Below are positions 5,932-41,756 of a stretch of 64,000 nt of DNA, one piece after another. The notes beneath the pieces were generated by a model. The model made no database searches. It saw only the letters and a list, made by a program, of their open reading frames with translations, and was not told where the DNA came from. The position numbers were made by a program, and so were the translations under genes. Positions within the stretch are counted from its first letter, which is position 1, and the number at the start of each line of letters is the position of its first letter. Source of the stretch: Chrysophaeum taylorii (Eukaryota > Sar > Pelagophyceae > Pelagomonadales > Pelagomonadaceae); NCBI GenBank assembly GCA_029834535.1, contig JAQMWT010000546.1:124001-188000 (forward strand), read 5' to 3'.

Positions 5932-6900
5932 ATGCCAGCGTTTCGAGGCAACTATCGGCCGCAGCCCCAGCAGCAACAACAACAGCCGTTTGGGCGACCG
6001 CCGTCCCAGCAGTTCGGTCGCTCGCAGCCGCGCCCCAACGGCCGACAGAACGCCCCGAATCAACCCCTCATTCTCGGTCGGGGGCTGCAACAGGAAGGTC
6101 CCTTCCAGCCGCAGACGCCGCAGCAGCAGTGGACTCCCGTAAACACAATCAGTGTATCGCCGCCCGATGGCGTCGATCCGACGGTGCGACAGGACTCAGA
6201 ACGAAAGCAAGACGTCGACAGAGAAGAGGAGGCTGGCTTGCGCGAACACAACCAGGTCTCGTATCCCTATACGTGTTTTGGCTTCAAAGACAAAGAGTGC
6301 GTCGTGCATGGCGACTGGAGCTTCGAAGAGTGGCGCCTCGCCTACTATAACGCCAGGCGCGCTAACAAGATGGCCGAATACGAGTTAAACCTCAAGCAGA
6401 GAACCGACGACCTCGCGCGCCAGTGGGCCCGATTGGCAACGCCCCTCGCTGCAACCCCAACCCCAGCTCCTACAGCGCCCCCTGCGCCACCGGCTTCGAC
6501 GCAGCTGCCGCTGACTCCGACGCAGCCAACTCCGTCGTCGCCGCCAAGTGGGCAAGCGTCGGGCACGCCGCTCACTTGGCCTGAAACAGATCGACCGGAA
6601 ATGCCTGCGAAGTACGAGATAGTTTTGGGTCGAATTCCCGAGATACCTCCGCCAAGGCAGACTGGCTATGCTGCTGTCACGCTTGCAGACCAACAGCCGG
6701 CTCCTACGCCACAAAATCCGTTCTCCCAACAACCGTTTTCCCAACCACCGTTTCCCCAACAGCCTTTTTCACAACAACCGTTTTCGCAGCAACCCTTCTC
6801 TCAACAACAACACCAACACCAACAGCCGGCGCAGCCACGGCCGAATGGGTGGCCTCCCATCCAGCAGCCGCAGCCAAACCCGTTCCGCCAGGTGTTTTAA
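5932..6900 (+). CDS. Gln/Pro-rich low-complexity protein
   Basis: 322 residues. A Q/P/R-rich head with a few FG dipeptides (QQQQQQPFGRPPSQQFGRSQ) and a tail of QQPFSQ-type repeats (about 6715-6810) flank a short ordered core. The core has a Cys/aromatic segment (YTCFGFKDKECVV) followed by WSFEEWRLAYYNAR and a helix. The composition suggests a disordered scaffold with a small interaction domain, perhaps a nucleoporin-like or RNA-associated protein, but no family is recognised. It starts 61 bp after the coiled-coil gene and ends 53 bp before the DUF899 gene, on the same strand. Confidence 0.7.
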   Translation: MPAFRGNYRPQPQQQQQQPFGRPPSQQFGRSQPRPNGRQNAPNQPLILGRGLQQEGPFQPQTPQQQWTPVNTISVSPPDGVDPTVRQDSERKQDVDREEEAGLREHNQVSYPYTCFGFKDKECVVHGDWSFEEWRLAYYNARRANKMAEYELNLKQRTDDLARQWARLATPLAATPTPAPTAPPAPPASTQLPLTPTQPTPSSPPSGQASGTPLTWPETDRPEMPAKYEIVLGRIPEIPPPRQTGYAAVTLADQQPAPTPQNPFSQQPFSQPPFPQQPFSQQPFSQQPFSQQQHQHQQPAQPRPNGWPPIQQPQPNPFRQVF

Positions 6901-13752: not shown

Positions 13753-13931
13753 GTGGTTAGCTACAACACGGGTTTGGAGGGAGGCTAGTGAAGCGTGACA
13801 CCTAAAGCGTTCTCAACACGAAGTCTGGGAGGCAGCCAGCTGTTGGTGAAGGTCGGACGTTGTGGTGTAGGTGAGCTATTGGTCGCAGCAGGACTCATTG
13901 ATCGGTTGGTTGTGGCTTGGCCGTTTCGAGG

Positions 13932-15389
13932 ATGGCAGCGTCGAGCGATGGAGGGCCGACATCGTCGACAGAAGAGGGGCGGGAGTTGATCGACCTAAGT
14001 GAGCGGCTCGAGTCAGCGATGCCGACGCTCATGTCGTTCGCTGGGCGTTGTGCCATGCCCGATGCGCTGCGCGCGACGGCGTGGAAGCTGTTTTTGCGCG
14101 TGGTGCCACCGCACAAGCCTGATTCGTGGTCGAAGTACGTCGCCGCGCAACGAAAGGAGTACGAGGTGATGCGGGAGGCGGCGATGAACCAGCTCGACGA
14201 GGCGTTGCAGCAGGCGTTACCCGAGGCGGACGAGGAGCCGCCGCCAGAATGCATGCTCGCCGCGCTCGAGGACGCGGCCGATCAGATCCGGGGCGACCTC
14301 GAACGGTGCTACCCCGAGGGCGCGGGCAACTACTTTCTCGAGGCCAAGCGTCAAAAGCTAATGTTCGACGTGCTGCTCGTGTGGTCCAACCAGCACCCCA
14401 GGCCGAGCTACCGGCAGGGCATGCACGAATTGCTCGCCCCTCTCGTGTGGGCGATGGACAAGTCGTTCGAGGCGACCAAGGCGGTGGCGCTCGACGAACG
14501 CGACCCGGTGAGCGCGGTGCGCGTCCACCCGACCTACCTCGAGCACGACGTGTACTGGATGTTCGACGCGCTCGCGGACATCATGCTGCCGTTGTACGAC
14601 GTGGTACCCGACGGGCGGCAGGGCGAAAACAAGAACGAGGTGGTCGAGATGTGTCGCCGCGTACAGGCCGATTGGCTTCGGAAGGTCGACCCCGAGCTCC
14701 ACGCGCAGCTCGCCGGGTTTCGGGGGAACGACCTCGTTCTCCCGCAAATTTACATGCTCTCCTGGCTTCGGCTCGCCTTCGCGCGACAGTTCGTGCTGAC
14801 GGACGTCGTCAAGCTCTGGGACGCGTTCTTCGCCACGTGCAAGGTCGCGAGCGACGACTCGCCGATCGACTATGTCCTCGTCGCGCACGACGACGACGAC
14901 AATCCCCGGTACCCCTCCATGTTTGACTGGCTCGAGGCCGTTGCCACTCTTCTCGTCGTCCTCGAGCGCGAGAAGCTCCTTCGCGCCACGACCGGCACGG
15001 CCTGCCTTCGCGTCCTCCTTCGCGCCGTCGCGCCAGAACCTCTCTTCATCACGCGCCACGCCCGGCGCCTCCATGCCGACCCCGCGACCCTCCAGCCGCT
15101 CATCGCCAGTCTCAGGCAGCACGCCCACTTCGCCCACATCCTCCCCCTCTGGGTTGTCTCCCTCCTCGGGTCCCTCGGCGTCCTCGCGACCGCCCCGCGG
15201 CCCTCCGTCCCGGCGGCAGAGCCTGCTTTCCACAGCTTCTCCGCCGCCATCTTTCGAAGCCTCCTCTCGATGGTGCGCTCGTGTCCTTCCTCGTTTGTTT
15301 CAACGACATCGTCGCAGGGCTACTACGCTGGCGCCACGAGGCCCTCCTCCTCCGTCACGGCGGACTCGCCCGACGCGACCGACCGATAA
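13932..15389 (+). CDS. TBC-domain Rab GTPase-activating protein, TBC1D5-like
   Basis: Rab GAPs of the TBC family stimulate GTP hydrolysis with an Arg and a Gln finger. Both motifs are present: IRGDLERCYP (Arg finger context IxxDxxR) and YRQGMHELLAP (Gln finger YxQG). The MHELLAP extension and the following LEHDVYWMFDALADIMLPLYD are typical of TBC1D5, a regulator of Rab7 and retromer traffic. LSWLRLAFARQF and LWDAFFATC complete the domain, followed by a poorly conserved C-terminus. The ATG at 13932 is the first in frame. A 45-nt GT-AG stretch at about 15270-15314 is divisible by three and may be a spliced intron near the 3' end; the frame is open either way. Confidence 0.9.
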   Translation: MAASSDGGPTSSTEEGRELIDLSERLESAMPTLMSFAGRCAMPDALRATAWKLFLRVVPPHKPDSWSKYVAAQRKEYEVMREAAMNQLDEALQQALPEADEEPPPECMLAALEDAADQIRGDLERCYPEGAGNYFLEAKRQKLMFDVLLVWSNQHPRPSYRQGMHELLAPLVWAMDKSFEATKAVALDERDPVSAVRVHPTYLEHDVYWMFDALADIMLPLYDVVPDGRQGENKNEVVEMCRRVQADWLRKVDPELHAQLAGFRGNDLVLPQIYMLSWLRLAFARQFVLTDVVKLWDAFFATCKVASDDSPIDYVLVAHDDDDNPRYPSMFDWLEAVATLLVVLEREKLLRATTGTACLRVLLRAVAPEPLFITRHARRLHADPATLQPLIASLRQHAHFAHILPLWVVSLLGSLGVLATAPRPSVPAAEPAFHSFSAAIFRSLLSMVRSCPSSFVSTTSSQGYYAGATRPSSSVTADSPDATDR

Positions 15390-15603
15390 GTCCCCCGACG
15401 TCTCCTCCCATTGTTGTGCCATCGGCCGCCCCACGTCCTCGCTACCTCCCTCCCTTCCTCCCACCCTCCCTCCACGAAGAAGTGGCGTGTCGCGTTGTCG
15501 TGTTGTCTCGCAACCGCGCTGCGCCGACCCCCCCCCTCACCGCCGCCGTCTGACGTCATAGTAGGGTCGCGTCAACAATCCTCCAATCAAAAACCGTGTG
15601 TCG

Positions 15604-17265
15604 ATGTGGCTCGTCTCCTTGTTCGTCGCGGTTGTCTCGGGGCGCGTGTTCTACGAGGAGGCCCCGCGGCCCGTGGGCTGGAGCAGGGTGAGCGTGGCGC
15701 CTGAACCGTCCAAAGTCCTGCGGCTGCACATCGCGCTCACTCCGCGGACGTCGCCGGCCACCATCGCCGCGACGCTCCGCGCGCTCGCGACTCCGGGGTC
15801 TCCGAGGTTCCGCGAGTATTTGAGCAGGGAAGAGGTCGTGGGCCTCGTTGTTCCCAAGGACGAGGATGTGGCGCGCGCCGTAGAGTGGGCCTCGAGCGCT
15901 GGCGAGGTGGCGACGTACGGCGACTGGATGATGGTCGAGACGACCGTCTCTGGCGCCGAGAAGCTGTTGAAGACGCGGTTTGCGACGTTCGCCAAAGATT
16001 CCGAACACAAGCTCCACGCGGTCGAGCCCTACGCCGTCCCTGACGACCTCGACGACGTGGTGGATTTTGTCGCCGGGATTCACGCGTTTTTCGGCGGCCG
16101 GGGCGACCGCGCCGTCGGACACCAAGCCACCACCGAAAGCGTCACGCCCTCGGTGCTGGATACTTTGTATTCGCTTCCGGAGGGAGTCGAAACCAACAAA
16201 ATCACTACCCAGGCCGTGGTACAGTTCGGCGACAACTTTTCGCCCGACGACCTCCAGACGTTCTTCGAGGACGAGCGGACGGAGCTCGAGGGCCAGACGG
16301 TCACCGTCAAGGTCGGAACCAACAACCCCGAAGGCGTCATCGAGGGCGAGGCCAATCTCGACACCCAATACATCATGGCTGTCGGGCAGTTCGTGCAGAC
16401 ATTTGACTACGCGCTCTCGCTCGACTCGGATCCGGCGGGCTTCCTCGCTTGGTCGTACGAAGTCGGTAACGACACCGACGCGCCCCTCGTCCATTCCATA
16501 TCGTACGGAGAGTACGGGGGATCCTACGATAACGCGACGGTCCAGCGCTTCTCCCACGAGCTCGCCAAGCTCGGCCTTCGCGGCATCAGCGTCATGCTCG
16601 CCAGCGGCGACAACGGCGTCGGCTGCTCGAAGCGCGTCGCCTGCGATTTCGGCTCCACGCCCGAGCAGGAGTTTGATTTCCCCAGCTCGCCATATTTAAC
16701 CATGGTGGGAGCCACCCAAGTCTCCGCACAAGGCACCGAGACCGCCGCGACGCTCTCGAGCGGCGGCTTCTCGGCCGACTACCCGCGCGCTACCGAGGCG
16801 ACCTTCCAAATTGACGCCGTTGCCGAATACCTCGCCAAACTCGGCGACGAGGTCCCGACCCCTTCGGAATCATTCGATAGCAACGGCCGCGGATATCCCG
16901 ATGTCGCTGCCACCGGCTACGACCTCAAAATCGTTGTCGACGGCCGCCTCGAAGCCGTCGACGGCACGAGCTGCTCCTCGCCCATCTTCGCCGGCATCAT
17001 CGCACTCATCAACGCGGAGCTTATCAATGCCGGCGAACAGTCCCTCGGTTGGCTTCAGCCCTGGCTCTACAACCACACCGACATGTTCACTGACATCACC
17101 TCCGGTTCCAACCCCTACGGATGCTGCGACGGCTTCACCGCGACCGACGGCTGGGATCCTGTTACCGGACTCGGGACCCCCATCTACACGAAAATGCTCG
17201 AATACGCGCTCGCCGACGCCAAGAATGCCGCCATCATTAAAAAAACCTACTCTTCTCCTCTCTAA
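15604..17265 (+). CDS. Tripeptidyl-peptidase I / sedolisin (S53) peptidase
   Basis: A secreted or lysosomal acid serine-carboxyl peptidase of family S53, related to TPP1 (CLN2). The N-terminus MWLVSLFVAVVSGRVF is a signal peptide, followed by a prodomain (residues ~30-170) with the LxxYLSxEEV block. The catalytic domain carries all key residues: Glu249 and Asp253 in EANLDTQYIM, the oxyanion Asp336 in ASGDNG, and Ser456 in DGTSCSSPIFAG. The C-terminal Ca-binding region is recognisable (TDITSGSNPYGCC, GWDPVTGLGTP). About 554 residues, close to the family norm, with no intron needed. A prodomain plus all catalytic residues argues for an active zymogen. Confidence 0.93.
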   Translation: MWLVSLFVAVVSGRVFYEEAPRPVGWSRVSVAPEPSKVLRLHIALTPRTSPATIAATLRALATPGSPRFREYLSREEVVGLVVPKDEDVARAVEWASSAGEVATYGDWMMVETTVSGAEKLLKTRFATFAKDSEHKLHAVEPYAVPDDLDDVVDFVAGIHAFFGGRGDRAVGHQATTESVTPSVLDTLYSLPEGVETNKITTQAVVQFGDNFSPDDLQTFFEDERTELEGQTVTVKVGTNNPEGVIEGEANLDTQYIMAVGQFVQTFDYALSLDSDPAGFLAWSYEVGNDTDAPLVHSISYGEYGGSYDNATVQRFSHELAKLGLRGISVMLASGDNGVGCSKRVACDFGSTPEQEFDFPSSPYLTMVGATQVSAQGTETAATLSSGGFSADYPRATEATFQIDAVAEYLAKLGDEVPTPSESFDSNGRGYPDVAATGYDLKIVVDGRLEAVDGTSCSSPIFAGIIALINAELINAGEQSLGWLQPWLYNHTDMFTDITSGSNPYGCCDGFTATDGWDPVTGLGTPIYTKMLEYALADAKNAAIIKKTYSSPL

Positions 17266-32307: not shown

Positions 32308-32626
32308 GTAGGTGAACTTACTGGGACCAGGTGAACTTACTGGGGTTTGAGATTGGGACTAGGTGAATATAGTGACCAGGTGAACTTACTGGGACCAGGT
32401 GAACTTACTGGGGGTTTTAGAGTAAACTCAAAGGTTAGCGGCGTGTGCGGATCAAAGCAGCTTAGATTGGCGGAGGCGACAGCGACGAGCTCGAAGGAGT
32501 GGTGTGAGCACGAGTGGGTTTACGCCGAACTTACTGGGGTTAGAGATTTGGAATAGGTGAACTTACTGGGACCAGGTGAACTTACTGGGGTTAGAGATTG
32601 GGACTCGGTGAACTTACTGGCCTGCA
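32308..32626. repeat. Minisatellite with GGTGAACTTACTGG units
   Basis: About eight copies of a core GTGAACTTACTGGG occur in two clusters (32308-32410 and 32520-32622). They are separated by variable spacers such as GTTAGAGATTGGGACT, and the array abuts the 5' LTR. No coding potential. Confidence 0.75.
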
Positions 32627-32628
32627 CT

Positions 32629-32813
32629 TGTATTCTTAATCATAAAGCAACAGCCGATCCTCAAGTTGTGAGGACCAGGCACGGAAGTTGTTTGTGGTTG
32701 TGTGGCGGGAGAACGGCCATCCTCGTCCAGTGACTCCATCAAGGGCACGGACGCGAGCGGCGAGCCAGGATTCGAAGGCACGCCAGGTAGGCCTAAATTC
32801 TCCTTACGCCACA
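32629..32813 (+). repeat. 5' LTR
   Basis: Begins TGTATTCTTAATCATAAAGC and ends CTCCTTACGCCACA. It matches 38837-39018 with few substitutions and small indels, indicating fairly recent insertion. Confidence 0.75.
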
Positions 32814-33275
32814 GGTGGTGGAGGAATACGAGATTCGAGCGACCATATCGGTCGCAGCGAACGAGTGCATCTTGCATTCTCTACACGGCCCGGACAAGCC
32901 GTGCGCGCCCTGATCAAGCGCGCCGACAAGGAATTCCAGAAGGACCACTGCCGTGGGGAAGTTACCCGGCCGGATACGTTAGTCGTCGGAGGTGACGACG
33001 CGCGATTCGGTTCTAGCCGACGCGCAACCCGGGTACCGCTGCCGCAGGCGAGCGGAGTGAGATCGCAACTCACTGAGGCATTGATTGCCGGGCAGAGACG
33101 AATTCTGCCGCCCATCGGACTGATAGATCGGTCGGTGGAAGACGCACGCGACGACGATATTACGCGTGTCGTGGACGAGTAGAAGTCCCAGAGTCGAAGG
33201 AGCACGAGAACGACGACGACTCAACCATTTTGGACCCGCTCTGATCTCGGCCGATTAGAACGAGCCAGAGCCGAT

Positions 33276-35600
33276 ATGGAAGACGATGATGCTGCCGACG
33301 AGCAGATGCGATATGACGAACCGCCAAGCCGCCAGGATGAGAACGAGCAGATGGGAGTTGTCGAAGGAATGTGTTCTTCTTGCGAAGAGCACGACCGGTC
33401 CGCTGCTCGGGTTGCGGTTACTGCCGCGGAAGAAGTGCCGACGGTCGTTACTCAAGGCGAAGTCCTTGCGATTGGCGATATCGTTAGGTACGAAGATGAG
33501 TTGAACGTCTCTACGATCAACAAACTTACGAAAGAATGTGAAGAAGGATACGACAAGGGGAGCCTTTCTTTCACCGTTTCCGTCGCTAGTCATTTGACGC
33601 ATTGCGACGCGTCTCCCCCGCCGATGTTGCTGAGCACGGCGCAGAAGGACGCTACGACCGCGCTGGCGGACGAGTCCTCCCTCAAACGACCCGAAGTCGA
33701 TGCTGATTTTGCTCGAAGGTCGGAAGAAGATGAAAAGAAGTGCCGCGAGATCACCGAAGCGGAGATCCGCCGCCGATACGAAAAGGTTCAATGGCTTCCA
33801 ATCACTTATCGCAAGGTGGTGATGCTGTTCAGTGGAGCCGGAGGCAGTACTTTAGGTCTCCAAAGAGCCAACAAATTGTGTGGGACGTCGTTTCGAGTCG
33901 TGCTAGCACTCGATGCGTCGGACACCGCCAACCAGATCCACCACAAGAACTTTCCGAATATTCCTGTGGTGCAGCACACACTACGTGGTCGCTATGTTAC
34001 AACCTTACGGTTGATCGAATCTTATTTACCCTACGCGGAATGGTCGTCGTCGATGTGTATCGCGTCGCCACCCTGCGTACACTCCGCTCTGTGCAACTTG
34101 ACTTCCAGAGATGTTGGCAAGGGAGTCACCGCTACCCACTGGACGATGAAATTATGCAAGATGGCTGGTTTCTTCATGTGGTTGATAGAGCAGGAGGCCT
34201 CGATTATTTCTTACGTTGCACGTTTGCACCCTTACGTGTACGTCGTCAATTTTTATGACATAACGCCCAGTTTGATGAGCTGTCGCGTGCGATTGTTGGT
34301 TTCCAGCCATCCGCTCCATTTGCGCGCAGTTCCGAAGACTTGCAAGAATATGCAGCAAGATTTCGCCGTAGCACTTGGCTACGCCGACGAACGACATTTA
34401 CTTCAGATGAACAATTTAGGATCATCGCGAGCCGCGACAGACGCAGCTTACACCGTTACGCGTGTCCCGCTTCGTGTAGGACCGCACCGTTCCGATTACA
34501 GATCTTTGAATCTGAAAATGACTTCGGAGTTGCTGACAATGCCCCTTGATTTTGATTGGGCCGGCTTCTCCAGGACGACCTCGTTGAAACACTTGGCGTC
34601 CGTCGTGCCACCAGACACGATAACCTTATTAGTACTCGATCTGCACAACTCTGTGACCAAGGATTTTCACCTGAGCGGCGAAGCTTTGCCGTCGGCGTTG
34701 GGTCCTGCAGACTATTTGCAAATTGATGAAACCACCCTTCGTCACGTACAAGTTCCGCTGTTAAACACGCGCACAAGTGTCGTAAGATGGGTATCGACTG
34801 ATGATCTCCAAGATCGCACCAAATGGAAACCTCCAGAGGTACCGTTGATTCCGCCTGCAACAGATGAGCCGGGGACGTCTCATGCTTCTTCTGCTGCCCC
34901 CCCCCGACAACCAAATTTGGATGTTCCGCCAGATCCTGAGCGAGATCGGGAACCGAAGATCAAGAGCGAGCCGAGTGTTCGTGTCAAAGGCGAGAGGATC
35001 AACAAAAGCCACCCGGAAGTGAGACTAAAATATGAGAAAAAGTTTGATGTGCCATGGAAAGATGCGCCGCGCGATGCTGAGGGTGCACCGCTACCGCAAA
35101 CTCCTGAGCATGTCAAGGATAACAGAGCCATGAAAGTTCAAATTCCTACGAAGGAAGAAGTTGACAAGGTTGTTCAGGAGGTGGGAATTCCTGACAATCC
35201 GCACTTAGATGATGAGGCGAAACTGATGCTCCGTCACTGTGCGCAATATTCTCGGGCCTTTTTCGACCCGATTATGAGACCTGTGGACTCGCCTCCTGTG
35301 TCTCTACGATTCAAAGACGCGAATCCGCGACCGATTAAAATGACGCCCTACCGATTGACGCCTGCGAAGCTCGATTGTTTCCGCAAGCAGATCAGCGAGT
35401 GGTGCCGGGATAGAGTCATTCGTCCGGCCAACTCACCTTGGGGCTTTCCTGAGTTGATGCTTCCGAAGAAAGGAGCTGAGATTGGAACGTCCAACGCGTT
35501 CCGCGCTGCAGTTGACTTACGTCAGCTCAACGATCAATTGGTCAATGACAGTTGGCCGAACATTCGACAAGATGATGCTTTAGCTTTTCTCGCTATGTGA
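33276..35600 (+). CDS. Retrotransposon polyprotein, part 1: cytosine-5 methyltransferase plus start of RT
   Basis: Residues ~180-458 carry a C5 DNA methyltransferase fold. Motif I is LFSGAGGSTLGLQ (from 33822), a cofactor-region strand follows (VVLALDASDTANQIHHKNFP), and motif IV is ASPPCVHS with the PPC nucleophile at Cys267 (34068-34076). A QxRxR-like SCRVRLLVSS stands for motif VIII, and a C-terminal RSLNLKMTSELLTMP...SVVPP matches motifs IX-X. The ENV of motif VI is poorly conserved. The first 180 residues are acidic with no recognisable Gag. After a Pro/Glu-rich linker, the RT N-terminus begins (PIKMTPYRLTPAKLDCF, SPWGFPELMLPKK, AAVDLRQLN). The frame stops at an in-frame TGA (35598-35600) inside RT and continues in the same frame beyond it. 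Confidence 0.85.
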   Translation: MEDDDAADEQMRYDEPPSRQDENEQMGVVEGMCSSCEEHDRSAARVAVTAAEEVPTVVTQGEVLAIGDIVRYEDELNVSTINKLTKECEEGYDKGSLSFTVSVASHLTHCDASPPPMLLSTAQKDATTALADESSLKRPEVDADFARRSEEDEKKCREITEAEIRRRYEKVQWLPITYRKVVMLFSGAGGSTLGLQRANKLCGTSFRVVLALDASDTANQIHHKNFPNIPVVQHTLRGRYVTTLRLIESYLPYAEWSSSMCIASPPCVHSALCNLTSRDVGKGVTATHWTMKLCKMAGFFMWLIEQEASIISYVARLHPYVYVVNFYDITPSLMSCRVRLLVSSHPLHLRAVPKTCKNMQQDFAVALGYADERHLLQMNNLGSSRAATDAAYTVTRVPLRVGPHRSDYRSLNLKMTSELLTMPLDFDWAGFSRTTSLKHLASVVPPDTITLLVLDLHNSVTKDFHLSGEALPSALGPADYLQIDETTLRHVQVPLLNTRTSVVRWVSTDDLQDRTKWKPPEVPLIPPATDEPGTSHASSAAPPRQPNLDVPPDPERDREPKIKSEPSVRVKGERINKSHPEVRLKYEKKFDVPWKDAPRDAEGAPLPQTPEHVKDNRAMKVQIPTKEEVDKVVQEVGIPDNPHLDDEAKLMLRHCAQYSRAFFDPIMRPVDSPPVSLRFKDANPRPIKMTPYRLTPAKLDCFRKQISEWCRDRVIRPANSPWGFPELMLPKKGAEIGTSNAFRAAVDLRQLNDQLVNDSWPNIRQDDALAFLAM

Positions 35601-38600
35601 CGATGGCGGACATGCATTGATATTAGATGGGGATACCACAACCTTCGTCTTGATCCGGCAGCGCAAGACGCTGTCACGATGATTAGCCCACTTGGCGCTC
35701 ATAGGTTCTTGCGATTACCTCTAGGTGTGAAGACGGCCGGAGCTCTTTTCTGCAAGCAAATGGCGAGCGACCTTTCGAAATGGATGTATCGAGACTTGGT
35801 TGCGTTTGTTGACGATATTATGATGGGATCTGACGATCTTCATCGACATTTACAAGTTTTGATCGAAGTGATGTGTCATTTGGCACAGAGAGGGTACAGC
35901 GGTCGAACCGCGAAGTTCCACCTTCTCAAGGATGATATAGAATTTCTGGGACACATTTCGACCCCAGAAGGCTTAAAGCCGAATCCGAAGACGCTGGAAG
36001 CACTGCAGAAGATGCCGATTCCAGGTACTTTACCGAATACTTCCCCGAAGACCCAGATACGCTCTTTCTTCGACATGAGTAATTATTGCCGGCGATATGT
36101 GAAGGGCTACTCGAAGATCGTGGAACCGCTGAGACGATTGTGCCTCGAAGGTGTAAAGTTCGAGTGGACGCCCGAGTGTCAGAAAGCTTGGGATACGATT
36201 ATTGATGCTTTGGTTGATTCCCGTGGAGTCTACCACCCCGATTATGATCTGCCTTTTCAGATCCGATCCGATGCTCCCAAGGATGGACTTGGAGCGTATC
36301 TCTTCCAGATTGTTGAAGTCAAGGCCGATGCCGGGAGAGTGACTCGAGAAGAACGAGTGATTGAATATTGGAGCCGAGCTGTGCCGAAGGAGATGCGCAA
36401 TTACGAGCCCCGTCGGCTAGAGCTGCTGGCAGTTATACTTTCTCTAGAGCACTTTCGAGCCTACATCGAAGGGCACCGGACTGTTTTGGAGACCGATCAC
36501 CGAAATTTGACGTTTATACGTAAGGCGACGCACTCGTCTGGGCAGCTTGCTCGTTGGGCGATGCGCCTCGCCAAATTTGACCCTGAACTCGGTTACAAGC
36601 CGGGAAAGTCACCGGGAATGAGTATGCCTTACTGTCTCTCCCGCAATCCGATAGATCATGTCATCGAGACTGACGAGTTTGGAGAACCTTTGAACCACGC
36701 TTATCTGGTGTTCCAAGAGCTCCCCCGACCTGTTGATGACCGAGGAATTCCCGCTTCCGGCTGCCACTTCATAATGTCGTTTGTTACGACCGAACTGCTG
36801 GAAGACGAAGACGAAGACCCTGAAAAGGATCCGATGAAATTGGCTACGTCTCACGCTACGAGACAACGTCGGAAGAACCGTGCGCGCGATGAGCCACAGA
36901 TCTTCAAGGACGCAGCCGCTTACAAAGATTATATCGATAAGATACCCGATAATATGACGCTCGCTGAGATCGCACGTGAGCAAGAATCTGATGCTACTTG
37001 CGAGGATATTCGCTACCGAATGGCCCAAGGTCAGACGCCGCGACGTTCCCGAGCGAACGAACGACTCGAAGTCGTTAAAGACTTTCTTTACCGCATTTCT
37101 GCTGATTTGCACCCGATGATTGTTGCACCTGCTACGTTGCGCAAGCGCATTATTCGACTCTACCATGACACTCCGGTTAACGGTGGTCATATAGGACGTC
37201 ACAGTACCGTCCAGGCTATCCAAGAACTATTTTGGTGGCCCCACATGTCGAACGAAGTTGGAGTCTTCATTGCTGAATGTTTAGTTTGCCAGAAAGCTCG
37301 TACGCCTGAGCCGAAACGAGCTGGACTCTTGCAGCAGCCCGTCTACGATGGTGATGGTGCTGTTCTTTGCATTGATTTATTTGGGCCTTTGCCCAGCGCT
37401 GGTCCCGAGACGTATCTTCTAGTATTTTTTGATCCGTTCTCGCATTTCTTGATTCTGGATGTTTTGAACGATAAGACTGCCGAGTCTGTCCTCGAGTCTT
37501 TTGTCATTAACATCCTCCTCAAGGGCTACTTGCCCCAGATGATTCGTACCGACAACGGTAAAGAGTTCGTGAACAAGTTGATGCGCGAGTTTTGCCATCT
37601 CTTTAACACGCGACACCAGACTACGATTCCTTATCATGCCCAGTCGAACCCGGCTGAGCGTGTCAACCGATTTATCAAGGCCTTCCTCCGTGCTTGCCTT
37701 CAGGGCCGGAACATCACGGATTGGCCCGACTTTGCCCATTATATTGCGTTTTGTTACAACCGCAAGTTTATTCCAGGCACGCAGATTTCTCCCTTTATGC
37801 TGCGCCTGAACCGTCAGCCGATGTTACCTACTGACTACACGCTTATGGATTTTGATACGCGATTGTTGCCAAAGACTCGCTCCGATGCAGTCGCCGAAAC
37901 TCGTGAGCGACTGAAGTATTATACGAAGATCGCCCGCGAGGCTCGTGATAAAGCTTTGAAGAAACAACGATTGGCATACAATGCTGATCATGTCGATGTT
38001 GAATACAAGGAAGGATCGCACGTTTTGCTCTACATTCCTTTCCTTCAGAACAAACTTCGACCGGAATGGCGAGGGCCGTTTATTATCAAGGAACGCCTTT
38101 CCGCGGTCACTTATAGGATTGAGTCTCTCGATTCTCCGCCCGAAGAACGACGTGTTCATGTTAGTCAGATCACGCCTGTGATGGTAACTCCGATCGTTGA
38201 TCAAACCATCCGCAAACCCGAAGAAACCTTCCGTGATGATTATCAGCACGGTAAGTTTGTTGTTTTCCGGATTCTTGACCGGAAGCGCTCTGATTGGCGC
38301 AAGAAGATTTACGTTGCCGAAGTTTACGAGCCTTACGATTACCAGAATGATCGTGTTGCTCTACATTTCTATTCCGATTTGGGTCCGAACGATGATGTCG
38401 CTTATTTCAAGCCGACCTCTCACCTTTCGCGCCGCAAGCTCAAGCCCGAGTTCAAGGACGTTGAAGGTCGAAGTTTCACCGACAAGTCCAGAATTTCCTC
38501 CAACACAACTCCTTGTGTCACGGATTTTGCTCCGCACGAGATTGATGTGTTGCTCCCTAAGTTTAATTTACGCAGTGGCCGAGTTCCTGAACCGGACATC

Positions 38601-38666
38601 ACCCGCGTTTACCAGAAGATTCGTTCACGAGATGCTCGTGAGGCGAAGCCGCGCTCCTCGCGCTAG
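35601..38666 (+). CDS. Retrotransposon polyprotein, part 2: RT palm, RNase H, integrase
   Basis: Directly after the TGA the same frame continues with CIDIRWGYHNLRLDP, FLRLPLGVKTAGALFC and the RT catalytic FVDDIMMG (about 35804). EFLGHISTPEGL and the thumb follow. RNase H residues appear in IRSDAPKDGLGAYLF, RLELLAVILSLEHFRAYIEG and LETDHRNLTF. Integrase has an HHCC zinc motif (YHDTPVNGGHIGRH...CLVCQKA) and a DDE core: CIDLFGPLP, IRTDNGKEF and NPAERVNRF. The C-terminal extension (KFVVFRILDRKRSDWRKKIYVAEV) could be a chromodomain- or Tudor-like reader, not certain. No further stops occur before 38666. The first in-frame ATG is 35679, after conserved RT residues. Confidence 0.9.
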   Translation, partial: RWRTCIDIRWGYHNLRLDPAAQDAVTMISPLGAHRFLRLPLGVKTAGALFCKQMASDLSKWMYRDLVAFVDDIMMGSDDLHRHLQVLIEVMCHLAQRGYSGRTAKFHLLKDDIEFLGHISTPEGLKPNPKTLEALQKMPIPGTLPNTSPKTQIRSFFDMSNYCRRYVKGYSKIVEPLRRLCLEGVKFEWTPECQKAWDTIIDALVDSRGVYHPDYDLPFQIRSDAPKDGLGAYLFQIVEVKADAGRVTREERVIEYWSRAVPKEMRNYEPRRLELLAVILSLEHFRAYIEGHRTVLETDHRNLTFIRKATHSSGQLARWAMRLAKFDPELGYKPGKSPGMSMPYCLSRNPIDHVIETDEFGEPLNHAYLVFQELPRPVDDRGIPASGCHFIMSFVTTELLEDEDEDPEKDPMKLATSHATRQRRKNRARDEPQIFKDAAAYKDYIDKIPDNMTLAEIAREQESDATCEDIRYRMAQGQTPRRSRANERLEVVKDFLYRISADLHPMIVAPATLRKRIIRLYHDTPVNGGHIGRHSTVQAIQELFWWPHMSNEVGVFIAECLVCQKARTPEPKRAGLLQQPVYDGDGAVLCIDLFGPLPSAGPETYLLVFFDPFSHFLILDVLNDKTAESVLESFVINILLKGYLPQMIRTDNGKEFVNKLMREFCHLFNTRHQTTIPYHAQSNPAERVNRFIKAFLRACLQGRNITDWPDFAHYIAFCYNRKFIPGTQISPFMLRLNRQPMLPTDYTLMDFDTRLLPKTRSDAVAETRERLKYYTKIAREARDKALKKQRLAYNADHVDVEYKEGSHVLLYIPFLQNKLRPEWRGPFIIKERLSAVTYRIESLDSPPEERRVHVSQITPVMVTPIVDQTIRKPEETFRDDYQHGKFVVFRILDRKRSDWRKKIYVAEVYEPYDYQNDRVALHFYSDLGPNDDVAYFKPTSHLSRRKLKPEFKDVEGRSFTDKSRISSNTTPCVTDFAPHEIDVLLPKFNLRSGRVPEPDITRVYQKIRSRDAREAKPRSSR

Positions 38667-38836
38667 CACCTCGCTGGGGCAGCTCGAATTCTTATCAGGG
38701 GAGTCCTGTGGCGGCAACTCCCGCCTCCTAAAGCTTACCCCTCTTCTAGCCCCCCCCTTATCAGGGGCACCGTACTCCGCTCTGATGATGTCAGTTTTCT
38801 CTATGACATCATCTTCCCTGATTTCTGTGATTCAAG

Positions 38837-39018
38837 TGTTCTTAATCATAAAGCTACAGCCGATCCTCAAGTTGTGAGGACAGGCACGGAAGTTGTTTGT
38901 GGTTGTGTGGCGGGAGAACGGCCATCCTCGTCCAGTGACTCCATCAAGGGCACGGGCGCGAGCGGCGAGCCAGGATTCGAAGGCACGCCAGGTAGGCCTA
39001 CATTCTCCTTACGCCACA
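38837..39018 (+). repeat. 3' LTR
   Basis: Begins TGTTCTTAATCATAAAGC and ends CTCCTTACGCCACA. Compared with the 5' copy it has single-base differences (for example AAGCTACAG versus AAGCAACAG) and a missing CC pair. Confidence 0.75.
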
Positions 39019-39737
39019 AGCAGATGGCGTAGTCGTATGCTGGGTCCCCACCGTCTCGCATACATGCTTGACTCGCCCCAGATGTTCACGTTTCACTATG
39101 ATGGGGAACCACAGGGGTGTATATAGCTATCCGCCTCACCGCTGCGCCGCAAGGAGTGTGTGAGTGGCTTCGAAGCAGTTGCCGTCGCCAATTGCTGGAG
39201 CCCCATCGTCTAGCACACACACTAGACCCCCCTCAACTGGGCGCTCTCACTTACCAGGACCGGATGTTCATCTCCGATGCAGATGTTCATCTTAAGCAGA
39301 TGGCGTCGTCGTGTGCTGGGTCCCCTCCGTCTAGCATAGGGTCGGATAAGAAAGTTCGTACGAGCCGTTAACTATGTTTCAGTTTGTACTAAGACATACT
39401 CAACGGATCGCTGAGCTATGTTCATTTGTACTCAAGCAGTATGTGCCGCCACGCCGCGAGATCGTCGCGATGGAACTAGTCCCCATAGTGAAGTCGGCAT
39501 CCTTTCGTCCCCTCACGCAAAAAAAGGGAAAAGCCCACGCGTTGTAGGACCCGTCGTTGCGGCGCGGGCTAGTCTCGTTTTCTTATCCGACCCTAGCTAG
39601 ATACATGCTTGACTTGCCCCAGATGTTCACATTTCACTATGATGGGGAAGCACAGGGGTATATCTAGCCCCAGGCACTCGCACACACCAAGACCGGCATT
39701 CCTACCCTCATCTTTTGCTTTTTCCCATTTTAATCTA
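39019..39737. other. Mosaic of transposon-derived direct repeats
   Basis: Two copies of a unit of about 70 bp beginning TACATGCTTGACT(C/T)GCCCC occur at 39060-39128 and 39602-39672; each ends at a TATA-like GTATAT(A/C)TAG. Two copies of CAGATGGCGT(A/C)GTCGT lie at 39020 and 39297. The right part (39655-39722) matches 31318-31400 and ends about 16 bp before the CysRS start codon. This looks like piled-up LTR or promoter fragments. Confidence 0.65.
39339..39593. mobile_element. 255-bp MITE with 15-bp terminal inverted repeats and TA duplication
   Basis: Perfect terminal inverted repeats GGGTCGGATAAGAAA (39339) and its complement (ending 39593), each flanked by TA, indicate a Tc1/mariner-like or similar TA-targeting MITE. 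The host repeat is interrupted: the uninterrupted paralogue at 39020-39075 runs straight from the GTCTCGCA segment into TACATGCTTGAC, giving an empty-site comparison. No transposase is encoded. Confidence 0.75.
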
Positions 39738-41756
39738 ATGAGCGAGGGTGTGACGATCGGGAAGCGATGGCAGCAACCCCAAGGCAAGGGGAGCGGGCTG
39801 ATGATCTACAACTCGCTGACGCGAAGCAAGGTGCCGTTCGTGCCGTTGGACCCGAATGGGCGCGCCGTGACGATGTATGTGTGCGGACCGACTGTATACG
39901 ACGCCGCGCACTTGGGTCACGCGCGGACGTACATCCAGTTCGACGTGGTGCGGCGCATTCTGCGGGATGTTTTGGGGTACGACGTGACGTACGTGATGAA
40001 CGTGACGGACGTGGACGACAAGATTATCATGCGGAGCCAGGAGCGCGGCGTGAGCGCGGAGGCGCTCGCGCGCGAATGGGAAACCAAGTTCCTGCAAGAT
40101 ATGACGGCGCTCCACGTGGAGCGGCCGACGGCGATGCCGCGTGTGACGGAATACGTCGAAGAGATCGTGGCGTACGTGGGTAAAATAGTGGAGAACGGGT
40201 TGGCATACGAGGATGGCGCCGGGTCGGTCTACTTTGACACGCGCGCGTTCGCGTTCGCCGGGTACGAGTACGGGAAGCTCGTGCCCGAGAGCGTGGGGTC
40301 GGCGGAGTTGTTGGCCGAGGGCGAAGGGAAGTTGACGAGCGTCGATGCCTCGCGCAAGCGCGACCCGAAGGATTTTGCCCTCTGGAAAGCGTCCAAACCA
40401 GGCGAGCCTCGGTGGAAATCGCCGTGGGGCGACGGGCGGCCGGGGTGGCACATCGAATGTTCGGCGATGATCGACGCGACGATCGGGAACGGGGGAGCGA
40501 TCGACATCCACGGAGGCGGATTTGATTTGCGGTTTCCACACCACGACAACGAGCTCGCCCAATCGGAAGCGTTTTGCTGCTGCGACCAGACGGTGAATTA
40601 TTTCGCGCATACGGGGCACCTCCACATCCGGGGGCTCAAGATGTCCAAGTCGCTCAAGAACTTTGTGACGATTGCACAAGCGCTCGAGGGGGTACCCAAC
40701 CCCACGACGGGGGCCTTGGAGGAAGCAGTCCGACCTTCGACGATGCGCCTCATGTTTCTTCAAGTCAAGTACAACGCGCCGTGCGACTACTCGGACAATA
40801 TGCTCGCGAACGCGAGGACTCTGGAGAAGAAGTTCAAGGAGTTCTTCCACAACGTTGTCGCAGCGCTGCGTCCGCTCGACGCCGACGCCTCCGCGACGCA
40901 AAAGTGGTCGCGGAGCGAGCGCGACCTCCGCGAAGCTCTGTCGAGCGCGCAGGCCTCGTACCGCGCGCGACTTCTCGACGACTTCGACACGCCCGGCGCG
41001 CTATTGGCGCTTCAAGCCCTCGTCGACGCGACGAACTCCTATCTCCAAGCTGCTGCTGCCGCCGAGTTCCCGCCCGTCTCCCTCGTGCTGGCCGCGTCGG
41101 CGCGCTTCGTCCGGGACAGCCTCGCGACCCTCGGCGTCTCCGACCTCGCCTCGGTCGACGCCGTCGCCGCTTTCAACTACGCCGCCGCGGCTTCTTCGAG
41201 ATCGTCCTCGTCGAAAAACACGGCGGATCTCGCGCCGTTACTGGATGCGATTGCGACCTTTCGCGACGACGTCCGCGTCGCCGGCCGCGAGGGCGACCTC
41301 CAAAAGGTGCTCGCGCTCTGCGACGCACTCCGCGACGGCGTCCTTCCCGAACTCGGCGTTCGCCTCGAGGACCGCGCTTCGGGCAGCGTCTGGAAGTTCG
41401 ATGACCCCGACGTCCTCCGCGCCGAGCGCGCCCAGAAGCTCGCCGAAGCCAAGGCCAAGGAGGACCTCCGCACGGCCGAGGCGGCCAAGAAGAAGGCCAA
41501 GCTCCTCGCGGCCCGCCTCAAGCCCGAGGACATGTTCAAGACTGGCGACCGCGCCGCGCTTTATTCGCAATTCGACGACGACGGCCTCCCGACCCATGAC
41601 GCCGCCGGCGACCCCCTCCCCAAGTCCCAGATCAAAAAGCTCAGAAAAGAGTGGGACAAGCAAAAAAAACTCGTCGAATGGGCGGCAACGCACAAAGACG
41701 ACGACGACGACGACGACCAAGCCCCCCCCTCAGTCGCGGCGTCAAATTGCCTCTAG
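39738..41756 (+). CDS. CARS: Cysteinyl-tRNA synthetase
   Basis: Class I aminoacyl-tRNA synthetase that charges tRNA-Cys. It has KVPFVPLDPNGRAVTMYVCGPTVYD with the zinc-binding Cys, the HLGHAR form of the HIGH motif, TYVMNVTDVDDKI, GRPGWHIECSAM, GGGFDLRFPHHDNE and the KMSKSLKNF signature. The C-terminal part has the eukaryotic-type extension: Ala-rich helices, then a Lys-rich KKKAKLLAARLKPEDMFK and an acidic tail. About 672 residues. The ATG at 39738 leads after about 20 residues into the conserved core, and no clear organelle presequence is visible, so a cytosolic enzyme is most likely. Its 5' flank is transposon-derived repeat. The next gene downstream also serves cysteine metabolism. Confidence 0.95.
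   Translation: MSEGVTIGKRWQQPQGKGSGLMIYNSLTRSKVPFVPLDPNGRAVTMYVCGPTVYDAAHLGHARTYIQFDVVRRILRDVLGYDVTYVMNVTDVDDKIIMRSQERGVSAEALAREWETKFLQDMTALHVERPTAMPRVTEYVEEIVAYVGKIVENGLAYEDGAGSVYFDTRAFAFAGYEYGKLVPESVGSAELLAEGEGKLTSVDASRKRDPKDFALWKASKPGEPRWKSPWGDGRPGWHIECSAMIDATIGNGGAIDIHGGGFDLRFPHHDNELAQSEAFCCCDQTVNYFAHTGHLHIRGLKMSKSLKNFVTIAQALEGVPNPTTGALEEAVRPSTMRLMFLQVKYNAPCDYSDNMLANARTLEKKFKEFFHNVVAALRPLDADASATQKWSRSERDLREALSSAQASYRARLLDDFDTPGALLALQALVDATNSYLQAAAAAEFPPVSLVLAASARFVRDSLATLGVSDLASVDAVAAFNYAAAASSRSSSSKNTADLAPLLDAIATFRDDVRVAGREGDLQKVLALCDALRDGVLPELGVRLEDRASGSVWKFDDPDVLRAERAQKLAEAKAKEDLRTAEAAKKKAKLLAARLKPEDMFKTGDRAALYSQFDDDGLPTHDAAGDPLPKSQIKKLRKEWDKQKKLVEWAATHKDDDDDDDQAPPSVAASNCL

Follow-up and report, generated by a model that had tools for sequence, protein, structure and literature searches.

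The window analyzed here, a 64,000-nucleotide stretch of contig JAQMWT010000546.1, contains a Ty3/gypsy-type long terminal repeat (LTR) retrotransposon whose polyprotein includes, directly upstream of the reverse transcriptase (RT), RNase H and integrase, a divergent domain of the cytosine-5 DNA methyltransferase (C5-MTase) type. Table 1 lists its features by position in the window; all lie on the plus strand. Pfam places RT, RNase H and integrase in the Ty3/gypsy order, and the two open reading frames (ORFs) share a reading frame that a TGA interrupts within the RT, so that the "one open frame between LTRs" of a first-pass annotation was right about the frame but not about its being unbroken. 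The LTRs are plain direct repeats and lie outside the interval given for the feature, 33276..38666.

The window copy is degraded: its 5′ LTR is truncated, ~3.7 kb have been lost internally, and the TGA splits the RT. A full LTR is ~340 bp, and the two LTRs of another copy are 98.2% identical; in the window copy only the last ~190 bp of the 5′ LTR remain, the 5′ part being gone, and over 182 bp this remnant differs from the 3′ LTR at 4 sites and by one gap. By blastn, the flanks of the deletion match another copy (L021) up to position 2992 and from position 6681, and the peptides SRQDE and ENEQLGVV, which stand at the junction in the window copy, are found at ORF positions 48 and 1284 in that copy. 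None of the 19 other copies that we read stops at the codon of the window TGA. The window copy itself can no longer perform the methylation proposed below for the element.

Table 1. Features of the gypsy-type element in the window
Feature	Position	Strand	Basis or remark
5′ LTR remnant	32631..32818	+	blastn hit covers only positions 151-340 of another copy's LTR (L021/L022)
ORF1: N-terminal stub, C5-MTase, linker, N-terminal RT part; premature end at TGA	33276..35600	+	
Internal deletion junction (~3.7 kb relative to another copy)	33338..33346	+	blastn against L021
C5-MTase domain (putative), 321 residues	33723..34685	+	PF00145, hhalign, Foldseek (poor model)
Motif I, VVMLFSGAGGS	33816..33848	+	
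Motif IV, PPC (within ASPPC)	34068..34076	+	Cys in 41/41 copies examined
Motif VI, WLIEQE (relatives WTIENV)	34179..34196	+	Glu in 41/41 copies examined; alignment
Motif VIII, R-V-R (MSCRVRLLVSS)	34284..34292	+	First Arg 41/41, second 40/41
Motif X, LASVVPPDT	34593..34619	+	VPP in 41/41 copies examined; aligned with GNMVPPAFA of L070
In-frame TGA inside RT	35598..35600	+	Breaks the copy
ORF2: remaining RT, RNase H, integrase	35601..38666	+	Pfam RVT_1, RT_RNaseH, Integrase_H2C2 and rve above cut-off
3′ LTR	38707..39020	+	Matches the L022 LTR at 84% over 337 columns

The claim of the first-pass annotation that the element encodes its own C5-MTase is borne out by profile searches. PF00145 (DNA_methylase) matches ORF1 at residues 180-237 with 24.4 bits and the MTase domain alone with 27.9 bits (E 2.1e-6), both above the Pfam cut-off of 22, although the match spans motifs I–II only. 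At E ≤ 0.1, PF00145 also picks up all 13 of the family members aligned; with these matches, and with the window domain above the cut-off, the MTase signal goes beyond chance, and a chance ORF was rejected. Two PHROGs named "DNA methyltransferase" also match (best E 7.8e-7), as does the NCBIfam cytosine-5 MTase model TIGR00675, at E 0.0011 and far below its own cut-off. Comparison by hhalign with the gypsy MTases of three elements from other records (L070–L072) extends over 230 columns (Prob 98.7, E 1.5e-16): these MTases are complete, occupy the same place in their elements and are collinear with that of the window family, and the alignment shows motifs I, IV (PC), VI (E), VIII (RxR) and X in canonical order. 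Motifs I, IV, VIII-like and IX/X-like (the last being the end of the domain, ..LLTMPLDFDW..LASVVPPDT) had already been placed directly upstream of RT–RNase H–integrase in one frame, and all are there; motif VI, absent from that list, is present as WLIEQE, which aligns with WTIENV of the relatives and keeps neither the N nor the V of ENV. In C5-MTases, motif I binds S-adenosylmethionine and the PPC of motif IV provides the catalytic cysteine.

In structure comparison, DNMT1, DNMT2, DNMT3, MET1, HaeIII or HhaI make up 17 of the 20 top Foldseek matches to a weak model (predicted local distance difference test score, pLDDT, 47; predicted template modeling score 0.46); an earlier AlphaFold model built from a shallow domain alignment (A1) had a pLDDT of 34 and was left unused. 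In both sequence and Foldseek matches, DNMT2 and DNMT1 or bacterial-type enzymes come before DNMT3, with scores that are weak and close to one another. Several observations pull against the assignment. Motif VI reads EQE rather than ENV in the window family, and the PC is followed by Val in place of the Gln of HhaI-type enzymes; because of these two changes, activity or substrate may have changed. VIA-align fails to tell C5-MTases apart from class I MTases of other kinds: RNA MTases, for example Spb1 and FtsJ, rank alongside or ahead of them. Searches of the MTase region against a protein database, made with ORF1 residues 100-520 (7995 best candidates scored) and with alignment A1 (7217 candidates), gave no match at E ≤ 1. 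Viral contigs scanned with alignments A1, A2 and A3 yielded none that was confirmed. Sequence matches and motif order still establish the domain as a predicted C5-MTase of divergent type.

The same fusion recurs throughout the assembly. A search of its 70.8 Mb in 697 contigs returned 60 matching rows, corresponding to at least 58 copies (a lower bound, with two pairs joined by eye); 31 of the 60 rows match without an internal stop, and two copies belong to long open frames, of 3063 and 3067 aa. This count bears on whether a host MTase gene merely lies beside an LTR insertion, or the fusion is a single chance event. The assembly does have host-like C5-MTases of its own: a PF00145 search gave 57 rows, none at the location of a gypsy copy (compared by eye), and two of them look host-like, one full-length and DNMT2-like by eye (L052, C634:8824-9801), the other a C5-MTase in a 2086-aa open frame on contig C621 (L053) that we infer to be DNMT5-like. 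However, the fusion in one frame with RT recurs in at least 58 copies, and elements known from other records have their MTase at this position too, from which we conclude that it belongs to the element. The neighboring host gene that the first-pass annotation had itself raised as an objection is therefore rejected, and we give that reading almost no credence; the other refuting condition named there, lack of a significant C5-methyltransferase hit, fails on the PF00145 score.

It had also been proposed that the MTase replaces a recognizable Gag and protease, a view that we rejected. The 3063-aa copy begins with the N-terminus of the window copy, continues with ~1,230 extra residues at the point where the window copy jumps, and then rejoins the common sequence; in the 3067-aa copy, blastn finds the same two blocks at similar spacing. 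Because the longer copy retains these ~1,230 residues, the apparent replacement is explained by damage to the window copy. Pfam finds nothing in the extra region at E ≤ 0.1, and a sequence search of 233 of its residues against the PDB was likewise empty; a retropepsin-like pattern, VDGMADVSYI..LLGGRD, was seen in it by eye only, and a protease common to the longer copy and L072 could not be shown. We presume that the N-terminal region normally present is Gag and protease. As a separate observation, an N-terminal stretch common to L071, L072 and a further element, L069, has a DCC or DSCC motif at the place where the Asp-Thr/Ser-Gly of a protease is expected.

Calling the element a separate instance of a methyltransferase-bearing retrotransposon, as was first done, is too narrow. 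In an RT/RNase H tree of 38 rows and 220 columns, the window family falls within a group of 18 rows (support 100/98) that also holds a Chrysocystis (Pelagophyceae) transcriptome protein, P0004, several metagenome proteins and L069–L072. Seven of the 18 rows extend far enough upstream to judge, and all seven carry MTase sequence: complete in the window copy, L070, L071 and L072, and as C-terminal parts in P0004 (hhalign E 1.1e-5), P0012 (hhalign E 1.2e-9) and L069 (by eye). The other 11 start in the linker or further downstream. L070–L072 keep ENV in motif VI. L075, which comes from a lake record and is more distant, has an RT and a protease-like match below cut-off but gave no MTase match when scanned. 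The tree and these alignments show the putative MTase to be common to the RT clade and, because the MTase carriers found share that one clade, indicate that the capture is old. The records that hold L069–L073, long gypsy-type polyproteins with C5-MTases, are filed as Planctomycetota and other bacteria; because such polyproteins lie in them, these bacterial metagenome-assembled genome bins seem to hold eukaryotic contigs.

The domain is conserved within the assembly. Among the 41 copies with an MTase region that were compared for motif residues, the motif IV Cys, the motif VI Glu and the first motif VIII Arg are invariant, and the remaining motif residues checked are kept in 39–41. Ratios of nonsynonymous to synonymous substitution (dN/dS; Nei-Gojobori, Jukes-Cantor) were taken as medians over 33 intact copies, which form two subfamilies, A and B. 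Between subfamilies the MTase has 0.070 (162 pairs, median dS 1.77), the N-terminal RT part 0.047 (135 pairs) and the linker 0.198 (168 pairs), values to be read as ranks more than as exact figures, since dS between subfamilies is near saturation and the pairs are not independent. The corresponding values within subfamily A are 0.237, 0.107 and 0.310, with 0.171 for RT/RNase H (10 copies), and within subfamily B 0.224, 0.431 (10 pairs only) and 0.371. By this measure, purifying selection acts on the MTase nearly as strongly as on the neighboring part of the RT.

A second family of MTase-bearing elements accounts for at least some of the other PF00145 rows. We sampled 13 of the remaining 55 (L054–L056, L059–L068), and all 13 match the MTase region of L055, several being broken by stops or frameshifts. 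The copy that we followed out, on contig C96 (L055, L058), has a protease-like motif (by eye), the MTase, rve (below cut-off, E 0.003) and then RVT_2 (E 7.7e-39), an order from which we assign the family to Copia. Its MTase, of ~540 residues, scores 33.2 bits against PF00145, has both PC and ENV, and with a median dN/dS of 0.15 over 36 pairs is itself under apparent purifying selection. Kinship between the gypsy and Copia MTases was not detectable by hhalign (gypsy alignment A1 or A4 against Copia alignment A2, Prob 0.4% and 0.7%), which would fit, although it does not prove, separate captures.

How the domain might serve the element is suggested by its place in the polyprotein. The polyprotein normally begins with an N-terminal region, presumed to be Gag and protease, which the C5-MTase, RT, RNase H and integrase follow in that order; the MTase would be made inside the pol polyprotein and, fused into it, would be packed along with RT and integrase and be the first to meet new complementary DNA (cDNA). 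The enzyme could then methylate cytosines in the cDNA of its own element, or in the DNA flanking fresh insertions, before or at integration; where the host has methylation of its own, new copies marked in this way would pass as self, or as quiet. To judge from the sequence evidence, the element-owned enzyme probably does act by methylating DNA, whether element cDNA or the surroundings of new insertions. Since a pol-fused MTase would meet new cDNA first, self-methylation of cDNA would be the simplest use and, by analogy, seems the likeliest function; it is proposed for other retrotransposon DNMTs in passages of de Mendoza et al. (2018; PMC5890265), which also report that the DNMTs of SymbioDIRS retrotransposons methylate CG in yeast.

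Other observations tell against such methylation. In the same passages (PMC5890265), no activity is reported for the domains of KnitGypsy and SymbioLINE in the yeast assay, a result that the authors call inconclusive. In the gypsy family, the observed/expected CpG ratio is 1.24 in the element versus 1.28 in the remaining window, and C/T differences at CpG occur at only 1.23 times the non-CpG rate (20 copies); with no CpG depletion and so slight an excess of CpG transitions, nothing points to heavy methylation at CpG. The figures would be equally compatible with a domain that acts on non-CpG sites or on RNA, or that has lost its activity. The ratio is lower in Copia pieces (0.98-1.16, with TG/CA up to 1.22) and in L070–L072 (1.01-1.06), so that some CpG loss is possible there.

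The lack of CpG depletion, the altered motif VI and residue after the PC, and the position of DNMT2 as best sequence and structure match would also suit a domain kept for a non-catalytic or RNA-directed role, either binding or methylating element RNA (DNMT2 acts on tRNA) or serving as a component of the integration complex that binds DNA or chromatin. A pure binding role, however, needs neither the Cys nor the Glu, yet both are invariant in 41/41 copies examined, and L070–L072, of the same clade, keep ENV; we regard such a role as rather unlikely. The MTase might instead mainly serve the host, restraining transposition or silencing rivals or viruses, with the element gaining by doing less harm. 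Passages of PMC5890265 propose this for other elements and passages of PMC6338049 for viruses, and two LTR families of the assembly carry MTases; conservation is, however, equally explained by benefit to the element, and we consider a host-serving role improbable. Returning to methylation of the element's own DNA, we offer tentatively a broader proposal that we hold to be possible rather than probable: in an old gypsy clade that has spread through marine protists, the MTase may be central to replication instead of an occasional passenger, and elements of two LTR superfamilies in one algal genome, gypsy and Copia, may have captured MTases independently at an equivalent place, right after the protease-like region, own-cDNA methylation being a recurrent need of LTR elements in such hosts.

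The host is plausibly a stramenopile, perhaps a pelagophyte. Among the ten best matches to the polyprotein the only named eukaryote is the pelagophyte Chrysocystis (two bacterial bins are also named), and the host is photosynthetic, because 84 stretches of the assembly match the light-harvesting family. A TPI-GAPDH fusion, which is a mark of stramenopiles, was not seen by eye in the two loci inspected, of four matches. As for the surroundings of the element, a AGGTGAACTTACTGGG minisatellite at 32310-32622 adjoins the truncated 5′ LTR, and a similar sequence directly follows the 3′ LTR of another copy (L022), perhaps reflecting an insertion preference. A cysteinyl-tRNA synthetase gene lies just downstream of the element at 39609-41756 (tRNA-synt_1e, E 6e-110), and a Rab-GAP TBC protein and a pro-kumamolisin activation domain are found at 13902-17262; six other long frames, of the nine scanned in the window, have no Pfam match at E ≤ 1e-5.

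The closest known systems include KnitGypsy-Dnmt3 of Klebsormidium nitens, described in passages of de Mendoza et al. (2018; PMC5890265) as a gypsy element with LTRs whose Pol frame includes a C5-MTase under purifying selection (Ka/Ks < 0.2). The window family is likewise an LTR gypsy family with an MTase in the Pol frame under apparent purifying selection, but its LTRs are plain direct repeats whereas the KnitGypsy repeats are arranged DIRS-like, and the KnitGypsy domain is a Dnmt3, a kinship that could not be shown for the window MTase; on this comparison, made from the published description, common descent is at most possible. SymbioDIRS-Dnmt3 and SymbioLINE-Dnmt of Symbiodinium, from the same passages (PMC5890265), share with the window family a retrotransposon-borne C5-MTase, many copies and purifying selection. 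They differ in that SymbioDIRS uses a tyrosine recombinase and SymbioLINE is a long interspersed nuclear element, whereas the window family has an rve-type integrase and LTRs; no phage-integrase (tyrosine recombinase) match was found by Pfam in ORF1 or ORF2 at E ≤ 1.

The Copia family of the same assembly resembles the gypsy family in having, within the polyprotein, a C5-MTase after a protease-like motif (by eye) and under apparent purifying selection, and differs in continuing with integrase and RVT_2, in its intact ENV, in the length of its MTase and in the lack of detectable similarity between the two MTases. With DNMT2, DNMT1, HhaI and HaeIII, the window domain shares motif I and the PC region in sequence and a class I MTase core in the weak model, but it has EQE, and those enzymes are not retroelement-borne.

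Many hosts silence transposons by cytosine methylation, yet here transposons themselves carry the enzyme. Clade-wide presence of the MTase, with a second one in Copia, would make of a curiosity, so far reported for two groups of algae, a rule open to testing on the needs of LTR elements in such hosts, and the ENV and EQE forms are natural variants for direct assay. Published statements limit the novelty: passages of PMC6338049 place adenine- or cytosine-methylase retrotransposons, gypsy and DIRS clades taken together, in stramenopiles among others, and a passage of PMC12344493, citing the 2018 paper, mentions DNMT3 within "LTR Copia and DIRS" elements. Among the open-licence PMC papers that our searches listed, we recognized no report of this gypsy clade, or of an MTase-bearing Copia element, in a stramenopile. 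Retrotransposon-borne C5-MTases as such were already known (PMC5890265); what is new, as far as we can tell within the literature searched, is that one is shared across an RT clade and has a Copia companion in the same genome.

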